From NCBI RefSeq assembly GCF_001189955.1, contig NZ_LFLT01000029.1, positions 1-64,000 on the forward strand: a DNA stretch of 64,000 bases, read 5' to 3'. The notes below the pieces were generated by a model. It did no database searches and was not told the origin of the DNA. It was given only the letters and a program-made list of their open reading frames with translations. The stretch is from Herbaspirillum chlorophenolicum. Lineage in GTDB: Bacteria; Pseudomonadota; Gammaproteobacteria; Burkholderiales; Burkholderiaceae_D. Made by a program: the position numbers and the translations under genes. Shown one piece after another: positions 1 to 7,241 of this stretch; the stretch's first letter is position 1, and every line of letters starts with the position of its first letter.

Positions 1-369
1 CGCGGCGGCTTGCGCAGCCTGCTGGGCGGCGATGCCGCGCGCCATGATGGCCAGGTTATTGAGGGAAGTCTGTAGTTGCTGGTTGGCTTGCTGCTGTTGC
101 AAGGCCGGATTGGTGAGCGACGAGGCCGGCATGCCGTTGGGCAGGTAGCCGGTGCTGGCCGCACTGCTCTGTGCCGCACCCTTGGCAGCGAACCACGCGC
201 TGCTGAAGGCTTGCTGGGCATGCGCGCTATGCCAGGCGCCGGTCGACAATATCAGTGCGATGGCGCCGGTGAGCGGGGCCATGCGGAAGGCCCCTCGGCG
301 AAATATTGCCTCCCCTTGCAAGCGCTGTCTTGGTGTTGTTGCTGCGCCTCTGTGTCCGCGTGTGCTCAT
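1..369 (-). CDS. Filamentous-haemagglutinin-like exoprotein, N-terminus (partial)
   Basis: This is the first 123 residues of a protein that runs off the left edge. The ATG at 369 gives a basic N-terminal extension of about 29 residues, then a hydrophobic stretch (about 30-47) ending in AHA before QQ at 51/52. An extended N-region plus signal peptide is typical of large two-partner-secreted or FHA-like adhesins. The mature start is Ala/Gln/Ser rich, with the phrase LPNGMPASSLTNPALQQQQA, which resembles the start of FHA-family exoproteins in Burkholderiales (recognised from memory). It is last in an operon with STN/TonB, ECF sigma and FecR genes and has its own candidate ECF promoter at 498-539. 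The size and domain content of the rest cannot be seen. Confidence 0.6.
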   Translation of the reverse strand, partial: MSTRGHRGAATTPRQRLQGEAIFRRGAFRMAPLTGAIALILSTGAWHSAHAQQAFSSAWFAAKGAAQSSAASTGYLPNGMPASSLTNPALQQQQANQQLQTSLNNLAIMARGIAAQQAAQAAA

Positions 370-497
370 GCAAAATTCCTGCCCAATAGTTGAGACCGTT
401 TCGATCCGGCTGCCTGCCCCCAGGTCGGCCAGCCACGTTCAGGGAATGTCAAATATCGTGGCAAGCGTTGCCGACGACATTCAAAATTTCCAAGCCG

Positions 498-539
498 CTA
501 AGACGAACGGCTTACCCCAAAACCCTCAACTATTTTTTT
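498..539 (-). promoter_or_regulatory. Candidate ECF-sigma promoter, copy 1 (42-bp repeat)
   Basis: This 42-bp segment matches 1636-1677 at 39 of 42 positions. Read on the minus strand it has an A-run, TTGAGGGTTTTGGGG, then CGTCTTA (505-499). The CGTC-type -10 element is what ECF/FecI-family sigmas commonly use. It lies between the fecR stop and the FHA-like start, leaving a leader of about 130 nt. The promoter function is inferred; the repeat itself is plain. Confidence 0.55.
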
Positions 540-551
540 AGACTTTGTATT

Positions 552-1574
552 TCAGCTCAGCACCAGCAAACCACCCGGCAACGATCTTGCATTCAGGTCG
601 AAAGTACTTTCCAGCTGCGACAATGCGACGTCCAGCGATGCGATCAGGAAGCGCCCCGTCACCCGGTTGTCGCGCACGGCATCGTTCATCAGGACCACGC
701 GGCCGGAACGATAGCGATCGATCTCTGCCAGCACATCGGACAGCCTCGCCTGATTGAACACCAGTTCGCCGCGGCGCCATGCAGATACGGCATCCGGATC
801 GACGCTGGCGATACCGCTGACGGACGAGGCGTCATAGACCGTCTGTTGATGCGCCTGCAAAGAGCGCGTTCCCGCTGGATGCTCTACACGCACGGTACCT
901 TCGATACATGTTACGCAGGCCCTGCCGTTCAGATAGCGCACTTCGAAACGTCCCGACTCGGCATGACTGCGGCCCGCGCCGGCAATAACGCTAAACGGAT
1001 TGCGTCCGGCCGACAAATCGATGGCAGCTTCGCCCGAGAGCAGCTTGATGCCGACAGCTTGCCCGCCCTCCATCTGGTGGCGGATACTCGTTTGCGTATT
1101 GAGCGTAACGTTGGCCAATCTGGATAGCGCAATCGTACGTTGCTCACCCACGGCGGTACGATCATCCGCGCCCCATTCGCCGGACAACGGCCAGCGGCCG
1201 CCCAAGGGATAAACCACGGTGACAGCGGCAACAGCAGCCACGCTGGCCGCACCACCCAGGAAAGCGCGGCGGCCGAAAGCGTTCCGCTCCCTGGAGGCCC
1301 GCTCCGGAACCATCGCTGCATCCGGGTGCATGCGCACATATTCGCCGGTCGCCGATTTCATTGCGTCCCAGCGCTGCCTGACCTCATTGAACGCCGTCTT
1401 ATGTTCGGCGCTGGTGTTAAGCCAGCGCTTGAACGCTTCGGCATCGATTGCCGTCACGTTGGCCGACACCATCAGACGCAACCAGACCCCCGCCTGCTTG
1501 CGCAGTTCATCGGGAGACAAGACATGGTCACTTGCACGTGGTTTCATCAGATCAAACAAACATAAAGGCCGCAT
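552..1574 (-). CDS. FecR-family anti-sigma factor
   Basis: A 340-residue inner-membrane sigma regulator. The cytoplasmic N-terminal sigma-binding region (about 19-75, SPDELRKQAGVWLRLM) is followed by a membrane segment at about 104-124 preceded by a GRRAF twin-arginine-like motif. A periplasmic FecR domain (about 140-235) and a C-terminal STN-interacting region (about 265-340) come next. FecR proteins hold an ECF sigma until a periplasmic signal arrives. Start choice is uncertain: an ATG at 1547 (MKPRASDHV) would begin closer to the conserved region, and neither start has a convincing ribosome site. The gene lies just downstream of its presumed partner sigma gene, with a candidate ECF promoter at 1636-1677 between them. 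Confidence 0.85.
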   Translation of the reverse strand: MRPLCLFDLMKPRASDHVLSPDELRKQAGVWLRLMVSANVTAIDAEAFKRWLNTSAEHKTAFNEVRQRWDAMKSATGEYVRMHPDAAMVPERASRERNAFGRRAFLGGAASVAAVAAVTVVYPLGGRWPLSGEWGADDRTAVGEQRTIALSRLANVTLNTQTSIRHQMEGGQAVGIKLLSGEAAIDLSAGRNPFSVIAGAGRSHAESGRFEVRYLNGRACVTCIEGTVRVEHPAGTRSLQAHQQTVYDASSVSGIASVDPDAVSAWRRGELVFNQARLSDVLAEIDRYRSGRVVLMNDAVRDNRVTGRFLIASLDVALSQLESTFDLNARSLPGGLLVLS

Positions 1575-1635
1575 CCCCCGGCGGTTATCGAGACGCCGCC
1601 GAAACCGGACCGGGAGAAATTCAATTTTCTACACA

Positions 1636-1677
1636 CTAAGACGAATGGCATTCCCCAAAACCCTCAACTATTTTTTT
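1636..1677 (-). promoter_or_regulatory. Candidate ECF-sigma promoter, copy 2 (42-bp repeat)
   Basis: Second copy of the repeat at 498-539, with three mismatches. It overlaps the last codons and the TGA stop (1664-1666) of the sigma gene. On the minus strand the CGTCTTA -10-like element lies at 1643-1637, about 60-90 nt before fecR. Duplication in front of both downstream genes suggests autoregulation by the sigma factor encoded here; this is an inference. Confidence 0.55.
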
Positions 1678-2179
1678 CATTATTGATTTGCGCATCCAGG
1701 AAGTCATGGGCACGTTTCAATTCATTTTCGACGATACGCAGGGAGATGCCCATCAACTCGGCCACTTCTTTCTGCGGCCGGCCCTCCCAGCGCACCAGGA
1801 GCAGGACTTTGCGACGCCGTTCCGGCATCCGGTCGATCAGTTTGAGCATCGCATCCATCTCGGAACGGCTCTCGGCCTGCTGCTCAGGGCCCGGCGCCGG
1901 ATCGGAAAACGCCATCAACGACTCGATTTCATCGAAAGACAACGAGCGGCTTTGCCGGCGTTGCACATCCAGCGCAATATTGACGGCCACCCGGACCAGA
2001 TAGCTGCCCGGGCTTTGGATCAGCTCGTCGTCGCCCTTGCTCTGCACGCGCAGCCAGGTGTCGTGCAAGGCGTCGCCGGCAAGGTCGCTATTGCCCAGCA
2101 GGCGCGTGACGCGCTGCTTGAGGTTGCTGTAGTGACGCGTCAGGTATTCCGACAGGATGGGACGTGCCTCTTCGGTCAT
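1664..2179 (-). CDS. ECF RNA polymerase sigma factor (FecI-like)
   Basis: A 171-residue group IV sigma factor. Region 2 is at about 10-75 (LTRHYSNLKQRVTRLLG, then ALHDTWLRVQ), followed by the short linker usual for ECF sigmas and region 4 at about 115-165 (MPERRRKVLLL, then QKEVAELMGISLRIVENELK as helix-turn-helix). The start overlaps the stop of the upstream STN/TonB gene by 4 nt (ATGA), and FecR follows, so the genes are an operon. The FecI class is assigned from size and from the FecR neighbour. The likely targets are the 42-bp repeats at 498-539 and 1636-1677. The last codons overlap the second repeat, so coding and promoter sequence are shared. Confidence 0.9.
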   Translation of the reverse strand: MTEEARPILSEYLTRHYSNLKQRVTRLLGNSDLAGDALHDTWLRVQSKGDDELIQSPGSYLVRVAVNIALDVQRRQSRSLSFDEIESLMAFSDPAPGPEQQAESRSEMDAMLKLIDRMPERRRKVLLLVRWEGRPQKEVAELMGISLRIVENELKRAHDFLDAQINNEKNS

Positions 2180-2940
2180 GAGCCGCCTCCCCCATCGTCA
2201 TTGCAGCGCGGCGCATTGCCCGGATGTTCCTGGTCGCGCGGCAGCAGAATCATGGTCAGCGGTTGCGCCATGTCCGCCGGTGGCGGGCGATCCATGCGCA
2301 CTTGCCGCAGGGTCTTCAACACGGCGGCATCGCGGCCGGTATTGCCGGTCGAGGTGAGCAGACGCGCCTGATGCACAGAGCCCGAGGCATCGATCTCAAA
2401 ACGCAATAATGCCCGGTAAGTTCCTGGCGCCGTTCGCGTATCGGCGCAGAGCGCTTCCCATATGCGCGCCTGAACCCAGCCGCCGTAATCTCTGTTCAAA
2501 CCTTCTGGAGGTAAATGCGCCGTACTTTGGGTACCGATATTTTTTAGAAAGAAGGCTTCAGATGAGCCGCTCTTTCCTTTTTGCGCAATCAATCCGGTCC
2601 CCTCAAGTAGAAGTTCCAATGCTGCTTCCGGCGTATAGCTGCCTTGCACGGCGCTCGAATTACGCCCGGCCACCATGGCGCTGCTGAACAAGGCCGGCCG
2701 GCTGGAAATAACGGCATAGCGCTGCAGGGCTGCGGCCAAGGGCTGTGCCGGAATATCAAAATCCAATGACTGTTCTTGCGTGCCCGGTACAGCTTCCACA
2801 GCGTCGGCAGGCGCGCCCAACGCAGAAGCCGCAAGCGTGCACAGCACCACGAATATGGCAGCGTAGCGACTCAGCCGGCTCGAATACGGATACACGCAAC
2901 TCGCTCCCCGCGCCTCGCATTGCCGCGAACGTCGCCACAT
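2176..2940 (-). CDS. STN-domain and TonB C-terminal-domain fusion protein
   Basis: A 254-residue exported protein. A hydrophobic segment at about 24-43 (YAAIFVVLCTLAASALGAPA) looks like a signal peptide or anchor. An STN domain follows at about 57-112 (DFDIPAQPLAAALQRYAVIS), the small fold at the periplasmic end of secretins and FecA-type receptors. The C-terminal part (about 150-238, with LLRFEIDASGSV and AAVLKTLRQVRM) resembles a TonB C-terminal domain. There is no beta-barrel receptor, so the signal could pass from this protein to FecR directly. It is first in the ECF operon. The start is uncertain: the N-region before the hydrophobic segment is unusually long. Confidence 0.75.
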   Translation of the reverse strand: MWRRSRQCEARGASCVYPYSSRLSRYAAIFVVLCTLAASALGAPADAVEAVPGTQEQSLDFDIPAQPLAAALQRYAVISSRPALFSSAMVAGRNSSAVQGSYTPEAALELLLEGTGLIAQKGKSGSSEAFFLKNIGTQSTAHLPPEGLNRDYGGWVQARIWEALCADTRTAPGTYRALLRFEIDASGSVHQARLLTSTGNTGRDAAVLKTLRQVRMDRPPPADMAQPLTMILLPRDQEHPGNAPRCNDDGGGGS

Positions 2941-3649
2941 CTGCGGATATCCTCCGCAAGATGCGGGAACAGAACGAATCGATCCGACAAGGTATGCACG
3001 TGATTTCGGGAAATGCGCATGCTGACATGAAAATATGACAGCGTTACTACATACGCCGTCACGCTCATTGCCATCTCAACAACGATAAATGGCAATGCCC
3101 CGGACTTTTTGCCTGGCTGAGCCCAGAGGCAGTCAAATCTCGCAAGCAAACAAGAGCCTTGAAACAAGGCCCCCCCGAATTTGAAAGAACCGGGATATCA
3201 AAGATCGTGCGACCGCGTGGCAGCCTTCGGTTCGGAGGCAGTAGAAAGCGAGTTGAATGGCGGGATATTTTGCTTAAGTGCGATTTACACAACCTTTACC
3301 CCCTACAAAGTGTAGGATCCGCTACAAGCAGTCATTGGCGAGCCATGCGGCAAGCAATTTTGTGCAAGGCCGTGCATCGCAATATTCCCAATGAGCAATT
3401 CTCAGCAGAATTACAAGCATTTACCTCACCACCGGGAAAATCCTGATTCTCGCGTACGCCCCCTCCCCTTACACTTTCGGCAACACGACAACATCAGAAA
3501 AAGCACATTGGCCATCCAACCTGTCGACGTGCCCGCTTGCACATCCTTGCTTATGTCAGTTTTTCCTTGAGTTTAATTAATTTTTTTGCAATATTCATCG
3601 TAGTGGTGATGTGTTGCCGGTTTCAGGCAATCCAACAAGGAGAAGAAAA
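2941..3649. other. 709-nt non-coding region between divergent genes
   Basis: No convincing gene is seen. It must hold the promoters of the minus-strand STN/ECF operon and of the plus-strand chemoreceptor. A short inverted repeat, CTACA-AAG-TGTAG, lies at 3303-3315 and could be a regulator site. An AT-rich tract (3560-3600) precedes the chemoreceptor. Confidence 0.5.
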
Positions 3650-5389
3650 ATGAAATGGTTCTATGATCTGAAGATTTCCAAAAAGCTGATCACTACTTTC
3701 CTCGTCGTCGTGACCATGGTGGCTGCCCTCGGCGCCTTCTCGATCCGTGAACTGGATAAAGTCAACAGCGCTTCGACCGAAATCGCCACCAACTGGCTGC
3801 CCAGCATCCGCTCCTTGTCCACCATCCAGCTGACCCTGTCGCGCATCCGCAGCTTCGAAATGCAGCACCTTCTTGCCAAGGATGCAAAGGAATACGGAGA
3901 AATCGAGCAAAGCGTCAATGCACAGATCGCTACCCTGAAGAAACAACAGGCGCTGTATCTCACGCAGATTTCCGAGCCGGAAGAAAAGGCCCTCTATCCT
4001 GAGGTCGAAAAGCAGATTGCCACCGTCCTGTCCGAGCATGACAAAATCATTGCAATCTCAAGACAGGGCAAGAGTGAAGAGGCTCGCAACCTGCAGCGCG
4101 GCGAAGCCACAGCCGCTTATCGCGACGCACTGCAAAATCTGAGCAAACTGATCGCCGTCAACGACAAGGGCTCGGACGCCTCCAATGTGTTGGCCGATAG
4201 CATCTATAACGAGGCGCGCCTGCTGATCCTTTGCACAGTCGTCGCCTGTATCGCGCTGGCCATGCTGCTGGCGATCTGGGTTTCGCGCCTGATCGCCCGC
4301 CCGCTGGAGCAAGCCGTTTCAGTAGCCCAGCGCGTTGCCGGCGGCGACCTGACTGCAGACATCCAGTCTTCCAGCAAGGATGAAGCCGGCCAGCTGCTGG
4401 ACGCATTGAAGAGCATGAACGACAGCCTGCTCGGTATCGTGACCGAAGTGCGCCAGGGCACGTCCACCATCACCGTCGCATCGACTGAAATCGCCAGCGG
4501 CAACCTTGACCTCTCTTCCCGCACCGAACAGCAGGCCAGCTCGCTGGAAGAAACCGCCTCGGCCATGGAAGAACTGACGTCCACGGTCAAGCAGAACGCC
4601 GACAATGCCCGCCAGGCCAACCAGTTGGCGGCATCTGCTTCGGAAGTGGCGGTCGCGGGCGGCGACGTGGTCGGCAAGGTGGTCAACACCATGGGGTCGA
4701 TCAACGAATCCTCGCGCAAGATTTCCGACATCATTGGCGTCATTGACGGTATCGCTTTCCAGACCAATATCCTTGCCTTGAACGCCGCAGTCGAGGCGGC
4801 GCGGGCCGGCGAACAAGGTCGCGGCTTTGCGGTAGTCGCTTCCGAAGTGCGCAGCCTGGCGCAGCGTTCGGCCGCTGCCGCCAAGGAAATCAAGGGACTC
4901 ATCGAAGGTTCTGTGGCGCAGGTCGACCTGGGCAGCAAACTGGTTGAGGAAGCCGGCCAGACCATGAACGAAGTGGTCAATAGCGTGCGCCGCGTGACCG
5001 ATATCGTGGCCGAAATCAGCTCGGCCAGCCAGGAACAGAGCGATGGCATCGAGCAGGTCAACATCGCTATTTCCCAAATGGATGAAGTGACGCAGCAAAA
5101 CGCCGCACTGGTGGAACAAGCCGCCGCCGCGGCCCAGTCATTGCAGGAGCAAGCCGAGAAGCTGACCGATACCGTGAGCATCTTCAAGCTCGACCATAAT
5201 GCCGTGTCACCCCCGTCCCGAGCGGCCAGGACAGCGTCATTCATGAAAACCGCTGCCGCACGGCCGGCCGCACCGGCGCGCAAGCACACTGTAGACGTCA
5301 CACCGAAGAAGACAGTATTGCCCGCCAAGCCAGTCGCCAGCCCAAAATTGACGGCCGCTAGCGATGGGGATTCGTGGGAACAGTTTTGA
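3650..5389 (+). CDS. Methyl-accepting chemotaxis protein
   Basis: A 579-residue transmembrane chemoreceptor that controls the CheA kinase. The ATG at 3650 follows a good AAGGAG site. Membrane segment 1 is at about 10-30, a four-helix-type periplasmic sensor domain follows, membrane segment 2 is at about 190-212, and a HAMP domain comes next. The signalling domain carries the highly conserved hairpin tip [20 protein letters not shown]. The protein ends in DSWEQF, which fits the xWxxF tether used to bind CheR/CheB. The ligand is unknown. No che genes are adjacent, so it is an orphan receptor. A terminator follows at 5445-5475. Confidence 0.95.
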
Positions 5390-5600: not shown

Positions 5601-5807
5601 GAAAAACAAAATTATAGCACCAGCCCTGCATTATTGGGAAGCCCCTCCCCTGAAATTTCTCTTTTGCATGCCTCTGATGCATGCCAACAAGGTTTTACCG
5701 CGCCGGGGGGCCGGTTTGCCTTGCATCAAAATTCTGCGCGCCTGCCTGATGACCGCGCCACGCATGCCGGATATGATTGGCGTTTTCCATTCCTTGCCAC
5801 GCCCGAT

Positions 5808-6482
5808 ATGCCCCAGGAAATCATTTCCGGCGACCGTTCCCAGGAAGCCCTGTCCCTCTCCGAAAAAATCCGCGAACAAGAGCGTGCGCGCATCGCCCGC
5901 GACCTGCATGATGAGCTTGGCGCCCACCTGACGGGTATCAAGATGGCTCTGGGGCAATTGCGCGAATCGCTGGCCCAGGCGGCCGGAATGGAACAACAGC
6001 ACGACCAGGCGCACTACGCCGAGAAGCTGATCGATGAGGCCGGTGACGCCATGCACGGCATCATCGATGACTTGTGCCCGCCCATCGTTGAATTCGGACT
6101 GGCCGAAGCGCTCGAATGGCAGAGCCGCATGTTCACCCGCCAGACCGGTATCATCTGCCGCCAGCGCTGCAGCGATGGCCTCGAAGGGCTTGAGGAATTC
6201 GAGGTGATCACACTGTTTCGCATTGTGCGGGAAGCCCTCAACAACGTCGCCAAGTATGCGCAGGCCGATAATGTCTTGGTCACCGTCGGGCGCGAAGGCA
6301 ATCTGCTGTCGCTGCGCATTGAAGACGACGGCTGCGGTTTCGATCCCGCTCCCGCCATGCGCAACGGCCACGGGTTGGGCAACATGCGGCGCCGCGCACA
6401 GGCGCTGGGCGGAACGCTGCAACTGGATACCTCGCCAAGCAAAGGCACTGCGATCCAGGTGGAGATCCCAGTCGCGCGCTAG
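5808..6482 (+). CDS. Soluble sensor histidine kinase, NarX/DegS class
   Basis: About 224 residues from the ATG at 5808. It has a HisKA_3 dimerisation and phosphoacceptor helix (RARIARDLHDELGAHLTGIK, the His of DLHDELG is phosphorylated) and a HATPase with N-box EALNNVAKYA, G1 box DDGCGF and GHGLGNMRRRA. No membrane segment or recognisable sensor domain is present, so it would be cytoplasmic. The reading frame stays open upstream through the tRNA-Arg gene, so an alternative start closer to 5610 is possible; the ATG chosen has no strong ribosome site. It is followed after 105 nt by a LuxR-type response regulator, its obvious partner. Confidence 0.85.
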   Translation: MPQEIISGDRSQEALSLSEKIREQERARIARDLHDELGAHLTGIKMALGQLRESLAQAAGMEQQHDQAHYAEKLIDEAGDAMHGIIDDLCPPIVEFGLAEALEWQSRMFTRQTGIICRQRCSDGLEGLEEFEVITLFRIVREALNNVAKYAQADNVLVTVGREGNLLSLRIEDDGCGFDPAPAMRNGHGLGNMRRRAQALGGTLQLDTSPSKGTAIQVEIPVAR

Positions 6483-6587
6483 CGCTTTTACCGGCGCCGC
6501 GCACCGCGCCTGTAAAAGTCCATGACACGCTCTACGAACGTATAGAATACCGGCTCGCCACACAAAGAGGACTGATGCGTCCCGCCC

Positions 6588-7241
6588 ATGAGCAAAAAAT
6601 CCACCGCCTCCATTAAAGTCCTGATCGTCGACGACCATGCCATCGTGCGGGAAGGCTTGCGCCAGATCTGCGCCGGCACCAAGGATATCGTCGTGGCCGG
6701 CAATGCCGCCAACGGACTGGAAGCGGTCAAGCTGGCGCGTGTGGGCAATGGCGACGTGATGCTGCTGGACATCGTCCTGCCAGACCGCAATGGCATCGAC
6801 ATCCTGAAGCAGATCCGCAAAGAGACCCCTCAGTTGCCGGTATTGGTACTGTCCATCCATCGCGAAGACCAGTATGCGATCCGTGCGTTAAGAGCCGGGG
6901 CGGCCGGTTTTCTCAACAAGCAGGTGGCGCCATCCGAACTGCTGGCCGCCATCCGCCAGGCCGCAGCCGGGCGCAAATACATCAGCCCCTCCCTGGCGCA
7001 GGAACTGGCCAACCAGATCGGCTTCGACCATGAAACGCCGCTGCACGAGACGCTGTCGGACCGCGAATACCAAACCATGGTCATGATCGCCTCCGGCAAA
7101 ACGGTCGGCGATATCGCCGCCGAACTCTCGCTTTCGGTAAAAACCATCAGCATGTACCGCTCCCGGGTACTGGCCAAGATGAAGATGCGCCACAACGCCG
7201 AACTCACCCACTACGCCCTGAAAAACGACCTGGTGGAATAA
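6588..7241 (+). CDS. NarL/FixJ-family response regulator
   Basis: A 217-residue DNA-binding response regulator. The receiver domain (about 8-125) has the acidic pair in LIVDDHA, the phosphoacceptor Asp in MLLDIVLPD, the switch Ser in VLSIH and the conserved Lys in FLNKQV. The LuxR helix-turn-helix (about 150-215) reads LSDREYQTMVMIASGKTVGD and SLSVKTISMYRSRVLAKM. It forms a pair with the kinase upstream. Targets cannot be read from the sequence. Confidence 0.95.
   Translation: MSKKSTASIKVLIVDDHAIVREGLRQICAGTKDIVVAGNAANGLEAVKLARVGNGDVMLLDIVLPDRNGIDILKQIRKETPQLPVLVLSIHREDQYAIRALRAGAAGFLNKQVAPSELLAAIRQAAAGRKYISPSLAQELANQIGFDHETPLHETLSDREYQTMVMIASGKTVGDIAAELSLSVKTISMYRSRVLAKMKMRHNAELTHYALKNDLVE

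Follow-up and report, generated by a model that had tools for sequence, protein, structure and literature searches.

Why does one 42-nucleotide sequence lie both before the gene for an anti-sigma factor and before the gene for an adhesin-like protein in Herbaspirillum chlorophenolicum? The two copies are at 498-539 and 1636-1677 of the window (by which we mean the whole 64,000-nucleotide stretch of DNA that was analysed), and both read in the same orientation on the minus strand. The original prediction was that the adjacent sigma factor drives both its anti-sigma and the adhesin. Motifs in the two gaps of related clusters, the matching of sites within clusters, and the way that the -35 and -10 blocks follow sigma regions 4 and 2 all support this claim. 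Judging from sequence, we are fairly confident that both copies are promoters read by the ECF sigma factor encoded at 2179-1664, a twin pair within a feedback circuit that includes the sigma, the anti-sigma, and the adhesin.

The repeat and its gene cluster

On the minus strand, the genes run in the order STN-TonB protein, ECF sigma, FecR-like anti-sigma, and the start of an FHA-like protein. The first is a VreA-like gene (2176..2940, minus strand; 254 amino acids) with matches to the Pfam families STN (2e-08) and TonB_2 (1.1e-05) and without a barrel domain. The sigma gene (1664..2179, minus strand; 171 amino acids) is of the VreI/FecI type, with Sigma70_r2 and Sigma70_r4_2 domains. It overlaps vreA by 4 nt, fecR begins 89 nt past it, and all of these genes point in one direction. 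The FecR/VreR-like anti-sigma (552..1574, minus strand; 340 amino acids) matches FecR (1e-11) and DUF4880 (4e-08), while its FecR_C match, at 24.3 bits, is slightly below the cut-off of 24.4. Our guess is that its translation may begin at the second methionine, at 1547.

The last gene (1..369, minus strand) encodes the N-terminal part of a TpsA/FHA-like adhesin. It is truncated by the contig end, as base 1 of the window is also base 1 of contig C115; a break of this kind might arise when a long gene that has paralogues is assembled. A Pfam search with the 123-amino-acid piece itself gave no match, and its N terminus is homologous to proteins encoded after fecR in three paralogous clusters. The opposite-strand neighbour of the operon is a chemotaxis-receptor gene. 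Farther along, a 409-codon open frame on the minus strand (5631-6860) has no Pfam match and overlaps frames on the other strand, so it may not be a gene.

The genome contains four vreA-sigma-fecR clusters: the one in the window (own1), one on contig C158 (own2), and two on contig C57 (own3 and own4). The other three have the same gene order as own1, and an adhesin-like N terminus follows fecR in each. The adhesin of own3 has a TPS secretion domain (PF05860) in its first 2271 codons, and a TpsB-type transporter and an ExbB-domain protein are encoded between own3 and own4. Three of the genome's sigmas are at least 85% identical to sigmas from Herbaspirillum sp. RV1423 (L067, L072, and L114). The VreA-like protein of own4 (L035 3508-4296) has a Pfam match for STN and none for the TonB C-terminal domain. 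There is also a fifth, weaker VreI-like sigma match in the genome (C140:7327-7812, 3.3e-28).

A recount gave 39 identities out of 42, as originally observed, and in a repeat search the similarity stretched to 55 nt at 85% identity (485-539 versus 1623-1677). A degenerate 36-mer made from both copies, with up to 3 mismatches allowed, occurs at 2 places in the window, whereas none of 100 dinucleotide shuffles contains it. Because the strict core of the repeat is found at just 2 places in the 5.3-Mb genome, both of them the window's copies, we ruled out a mobile or dispersed repeat. A looser core with up to 2 mismatches has 5 places in the genome, versus 3 for a reversed control pattern. These five are the two copies in the window, a site with 0 mismatches before a paralogous adhesin (C57:13031), and two sites with 2 mismatches. 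If the looser pattern is given a 15-nt gap, then it has 14 places with two mismatches, versus 7 for the control, and it misses the window's sites, whose gap is 14.

The fecR-side copy does overlap the end of the sigma gene, as had been proposed: the stop codon (TGA, 1666-1664) lies within TTGAGGG. The adhesin-side copy starts 12 nt past the stop of fecR. Each copy holds a predicted promoter on the minus strand. On the fecR side, the -35 block (1658..1669, AGTTGAGGGTTT) includes the sigma stop codon and is followed by the -10 block ATTCGTCTT at 1638..1646; on the adhesin side, the -35 block (520..531) is also AGTTGAGGGTTT, and the -10 block at 500..508 is GTTCGTCTT. With the leave-out model described below, the fecR-side site scores 27.1 bits and the adhesin-side site scores 27.4 bits, with 0 of 100 shuffles equal in either case. 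The full adhesin-side model gives 29.9 bits on the fecR side and 30.1 bits on the adhesin side, the latter site being included in that model. Besides these two copies, the full promoter model finds no site of at least 13 bits in the 64-kb window.

Transcription had been predicted to start at 498-505 and 1637-1643, and here the prediction needs correction, as those positions are the -10 boxes. In the mapped pdtA promoter of Pseudomonas aeruginosa, the -10 box is at -11 to -5 (excerpts of PMC4971064). By analogy, +1 should be near 494 for the adhesin and near 1632 on the fecR side. The term "operon" was also loose, since a promoter at the adhesin-side copy would put the adhesin in a separate transcription unit.

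Several other candidate features were considered and rejected. The T run on the plus strand might suggest a terminator, and positions 1-3700 have 4 terminator-like matches (3.9 expected), none of which are at 485-539 or 1623-1677. The 93 nt before fecR fold no better than their shuffles (z = 0.85), which does not indicate a structured leader. For a sigma-70 promoter before vreA, the sole sigma-70-like match in 1-3700 is elsewhere, at 1707-1679 (1.8 expected).

The motif in related clusters

Related loci were found by scanning genome contigs with a six-sequence sigma alignment, and we used the best 80 of 164 loci. Adding the four clusters of this genome and five from relatives gave 89 clusters, of which 87 were used (L113, in which no pair was found, and L115, which is the same locus as L036, were removed). 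These 87 clusters form 54 groups at 85% sigma identity. The distance from the sigma stop to the start of the match to the FecR model is at least 60 nt in 78 of the 87 clusters, which we describe as having a gap, and shorter in the other 9.

The two gaps were searched separately for motifs. Between sigma and fecR, the de novo search returned a two-block motif, nnnTGcGGnTtt and AtnCGTCtt, separated by 10-11 nt. Between fecR and the adhesin (62 clusters, with the fecR coding sequence trimmed off beforehand), it returned nnTttGcGGnTT and nTtCGTCtT, separated by 11-12 nt, and the three best solutions were shifted forms of this one motif. One two-part motif thus came out of both gaps: TGcGGnTt and CGTCtt, with about 14 nt between them.

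We scored regions with a leave-out model of the adhesin-side sites (61 of the 62 sites were above 8 bits), with sigmas that are at least 70% identical excluded and with 100 shuffles per region. In the fecR-side gap, the site was above all 100 shuffles in 54 of 78 clusters and had p ≤ 0.05 in 67 of 78; in the remaining 11 gap clusters, no site was found at that threshold. Counted by sigma group, 35 of 47 have a fecR-side site at p ≤ 0.02. On the adhesin side, 57 of 75 clusters were above all shuffles and 70 of 75 had p ≤ 0.05. The control regions inside fecR (1/76 above all shuffles, 4/76 at p ≤ 0.05) and upstream of vreA (1/70 and 5/70) gave few sites, and among the clusters in which sigma and fecR nearly touch, a fecR-side site was found in 0 of 9.

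Within this genome, the fecR-side sites of own1 to own4 score 27.1, 18.4, 11.3, and 9.2 bits (p = 0.01, 0.01, 0.02, and 0.03), so the window's cluster has the clearest site and own4 has the weakest. We also ran the full model, which includes the genome's own adhesin sites, across stretches of this genome (135,467 bases; five stretches besides the window; about 129 kb once the overlap between L163 and L035 is removed). Seven of the 8 expected sites reached at least 13 bits, and the fecR-side site of own4 fell below this. The extra matches were shifted readings of expected sites, two weak sites (13.7 and 13.0 bits), and a site of 18.0 bits some 75 nt upstream of the listed start of tpsB at 6601 (L163 6526, on C57), so the TpsB-type transporter may be co-controlled with the adhesins. 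Also, three loci (L063, L069, and L076) whose sigma has the helix VEYEL have CGTT and not CGTC in the -10 block of both promoters, yet L070, which has the VEYEL helix too, has CGTC.

The motif was at about chance frequency in the Pseudomonad loci that we examined (50 of many matches, with the family assigned from a strong OprF match), with sites at p ≤ 0.02 before fecR in 2/50 and after fecR in 1/50, as compared to sequences redrawn from dinucleotide frequencies rather than exact shuffles (the control for pho boxes, below, was made the same way). A vreA-like gene is present in 34 of the 50. In 13 of the 50 (L220 and, with the exception of L213, L205-L217), fewer than 20 nt separate sigma from fecR, so the promoter would not fit. 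We built a quick maximum-likelihood tree of 66 sigmas, in which the 39 representatives scored as having a fecR-side site all fall in one clade of 46 (SH-aLRT 95). The sigmas outside this clade are alphaproteobacterial, Pseudomonad (12), or from the family Oxalobacteraceae (three). The Pseudomonad sigma from L222 is outside the clade, yet its locus has a fecR-side site at p = 0.02.

Matching between paired sites and the sigma of their cluster

The two sites of a cluster were compared in the 61 of the 87 clusters (38 groups) in which both had p ≤ 0.05, with the sites picked by the model alone. Choosing the pairs with the greatest similarity would select for similarity, so pairing of that kind was kept out of the statistics. 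The -35 blocks are identical at 8.51 of 12 positions within clusters versus 6.60 between clusters, which was matched in 0 of 2000 permutations across the 38 groups (these controls reduce the effect of phylogeny and do not fully remove it). The -10 blocks are identical at 6.91 of 9 positions within clusters versus 6.01 between (0/2000).

The spacers are slightly more alike within clusters too (identity of 0.39 versus 0.33; 2/2000), so some of the likeness comes from shared descent or composition. Could the adhesin-side copy be a recent duplication or gene conversion, with a likeness that reflects descent only? The window's own pair might give this impression, as 9 of 11 bases in the spacers are alike and the A-tract upstream is alike as well, as against a mean within-cluster spacer identity of just 0.39. 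However, the pair is found in many genera with dissimilar spacers and matched -35 and -10 blocks, and we give this explanation almost no weight. Recent conversion may add to the high identity of the window's pair without explaining the pair.

We prefer the twin-promoter explanation. In the 11 genomes with at least two clusters (27 clusters), the -35 identities of cognate pairs sum to 239, versus a mean of 204.5 under permutation (0/20000). For fecR-side sites, the cognate partner on the adhesin side is the best match in 18 of 27 cases, is tied in 9, and is beaten in none. For adhesin-side sites, the cognate partner is best in 21 of 27 and tied in 3, and in the other 3 (own3, L078, and L099) a non-cognate fecR-side site of the same genome fits better. 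For own1 to own4, the cognate -35 blocks share 12, 9, 7, and 7 of 12 positions.

These counts bear on whether the sites are also read by one or more paralogous sigmas, so that the four adhesin circuits of this genome would be one cross-talking regulon. A few comparisons point that way. The fecR-side site of own1 matches the adhesin site of own3 at 10/12 positions, while own3's own fecR-side site matches it at 7/12; the site at C57:13031 fits the loose own1 pattern with 0 mismatches; and own3 and own4 have fecR-side sites that match the adhesin site of own2 as well as they match their own (7 and 7). Against this, cognate partners are seldom or never beaten in the 27 comparisons from either side, the fecR-side site of own1 has just 5/12 positions in common with the adhesin site of own2 or of own4, and the -35 block tracks the helix-turn-helix of the cognate sigma (see below). 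We think that a single regulon is unlikely. Instead, the paralogous clusters have their own promoter pairs, which means that the four adhesins probably answer to partly separate sigmas, with some cross-talk possible. Taken across genomes, these patterns suggest that paralogous circuits are insulated from each other.

To relate the promoters to the sigmas, we compared distance matrices for the 38 groups. The distance between -35 blocks (using both sites) correlates with the distance between helix-turn-helix sequences (r = 0.467), FecR proteins (0.418), and sigma region 2 (0.332), each with 0/2000 permutations as high. Given FecR, the correlation of the -35 block with the helix-turn-helix is 0.295 (0/2000) and with region 2 it is 0.146 (27/2000). 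The -10 distance correlates with region 2 (r = 0.225, 5/2000) and not with the helix-turn-helix (r = -0.097). The adhesin side is the source of this -10 correlation (0.300); for the fecR side by itself, the value is 0.058 (373/2000). A -35 block that follows the helix-turn-helix and a -10 block that follows region 2 are what recognition by sigma regions 4 and 2 should give.

These correlations also argue against an operator for another regulator with no sigma-factor promoter. A shared operator would likewise appear as an element repeated before two genes, and the chance-level sigma-70-like match at 1707-1679 is directly upstream of the fecR-side copy. However, the conserved part of the element is two short blocks at a near-constant distance with a variable spacer, and the two blocks track two different sigma regions. 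Furthermore, the layout is that of the mutated pdtA promoter, which has the -10 at -11 to -5 and a -35 that includes -34 to -30 (excerpts of PMC4971064). An operator is thus very improbable, and we continue with promoters for the cognate sigma.

The proposed circuit and its relatives

We propose the following circuit. The vreA-sigma-fecR operon would be transcribed from an upstream promoter that lacks the motif and is perhaps controlled by PhoB. The FecR protein would keep the sigma inactive until the periplasmic STN-TonB protein relays a signal that releases it, as we infer from VreA and VreR. The released sigma would start transcription of the adhesin near 494 and would also start transcription near 1632, at a second promoter within its own operon, between sigma and fecR. 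The cognate sigma would very probably activate its anti-sigma and its adhesin and not itself. This would raise the anti-sigma and not the sigma, giving a negative feedback loop; the output of adhesin would be bounded and would shut off quickly once the signal ends. VreR of P. aeruginosa is described as acting purely as an anti-sigma, and the vreA promoter there as independent of VreI (excerpts of PMC4971064). If VreR's relative here also acts purely as an anti-sigma, then activation of fecR would be negative feedback. As for the original suggestion that adhesion is gated by a TonB/STN signal, the architecture is consistent with it: an STN domain is joined to a TonB C-terminal domain, as in VreA.

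The phosphate input of the known system has a possible counterpart here. At the pdtA promoter of P. aeruginosa, PhoB binds upstream of the -35 and is required (excerpts of PMC4971064). Upstream of the window's vreA there is a weak pho-box-like site, ATGTAGTAACGCTGTCAT (3035..3052, minus strand), which starts 112 nt before the ATG and has a sense-strand p of about 0.02. It overlaps a terminator-like match, and such matches are at chance level in 1-3700. With the pho-box consensus, pho-box-like sites are called upstream of vreA in 33 of 78 clusters (2.7 expected), and 33 of 33 are in the sense orientation; the window's site is not among the 33. When the clusters are counted by group, the sense strand has the higher score in 40 of 47, the lower in 5, and an equal one in 2 (p = 8e-8). 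At the promoters themselves, pho-box-like sites occur in 7/87 on the fecR side and 15/84 on the adhesin side (about 3 expected each), and in 1/85 inside fecR. These sequences suggest that phosphate control of vreA-type operons may be widespread outside of Pseudomonas. Neither promoter of the window's cluster has a called pho-box-like site, unlike those of pdtA and phdA, where a pho box lies directly upstream of the sigma-dependent -35.

The closest known system is PUMA3 (VreA-VreI-VreR) of P. aeruginosa. Both have the gene order vreA-sigma-antisigma, a VreA with an STN domain and a TonB/TolA-like C terminus and no barrel, and an exoprotein of two-partner secretion (pdtA, a TpsA, there; a TpsA-like start here). 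Also, the independence of the vreA promoter from VreI is mirrored here by the absence of the motif upstream of vreA. Clusters of the PUMA3 type are reported to occur fourfold in Janthinobacterium and in R. palustris, with tpsA after three of the four and tpsB with exbBD after the fourth (excerpts of PMC2729926, Llamas et al.). The gene content of the four clusters and their surroundings in this genome is near to that of PUMA3. On the other hand, the window's cluster has a second sigma-type promoter before the anti-sigma gene, and it lacks a called counterpart of the PhoB site at the pdtA promoter. The motif's chance-level frequency in the 50 Pseudomonad loci is another difference, although these may not include VreI itself. 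In the quick tree, the window's sigma is in the clade of 46, which holds none of the Pseudomonad sigmas used, among which VreI was not recognised. We describe the system as PUMA3-like and not as PUMA3, because a pho box was not found before the sigma-dependent -35.

The feedback itself has a precedent in the Has system of Serratia marcescens. HasI activates hasS, which encodes the anti-sigma, and not hasI, and both hasS and hasR have TTTACGGGTTT in their -35 region; activation of hasS was explained as building a store of anti-sigma for rapid shut-off (excerpts of PMC9249621). That sequence is near the TTTGCGGnTTT-like blocks that we found. The wiring is also alike by sequence, as the predicted sigma-type promoter is present before the anti-sigma gene (54/78) and not before the sigma operon (1/70). 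The inputs and outputs differ: Has senses haem via a full TonB-dependent receptor and hasI is controlled by Fur (excerpts of PMC9249621), whereas the window's cluster has an STN-TonB protein and a giant adhesin. The same excerpts state that other iron-uptake sigmas activate neither their own gene nor the anti-sigma gene. FecI/FecR, the ferric citrate system of E. coli, shares the ECF-type sigma regions and the FecR-type anti-sigma, but transcription of fecIR is described in those excerpts as not autoregulated, and the window's operon adjoins an adhesin gene and, on the other strand, a chemotaxis-receptor gene.

The kind of system is therefore already known: it is PUMA3-like signalling with Has-like feedback. 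In the openly licensed literature, judged by the beginnings of abstracts, we found no earlier report of a sigma-dependent promoter before a vreR-type gene. What seems to be new is the feedback promoter as a conserved trait of a sigma clade that is tied to giant adhesins, with promoter pairs that co-vary.

More tentatively, and with less than even confidence, we suggest that this clade of FecI/VreI-type sigmas, from Burkholderiales and their neighbours, consists of insulated cassettes of one sigma, one anti-sigma, and one giant adhesin, which would have matched promoter pairs, a code linking the helix-turn-helix to the -35, feedback via the anti-sigma, and a common gate of phosphate starvation. 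Possible examples of the code, at the same level of confidence, are ENEL with TTGAGGG, ESDL mostly with TCTGCGG, and DREL with GTAnAGCTT (on the adhesin side).

If the cassette interpretation is true, then a single genome could run several adhesins largely separately. A sigma that feeds its own inhibitor, and not itself, should limit the output of a very large and costly surface protein. The clade also offers dozens of natural pairs of sigma and promoter, from which -35 recognition might be readable from sequence, and these pairs are useful for asking how separate paralogous sigmas stay. A single repeat thereby becomes a testable circuit, and with Has-type feedback extended across a whole clade, the design does not seem to be rare.
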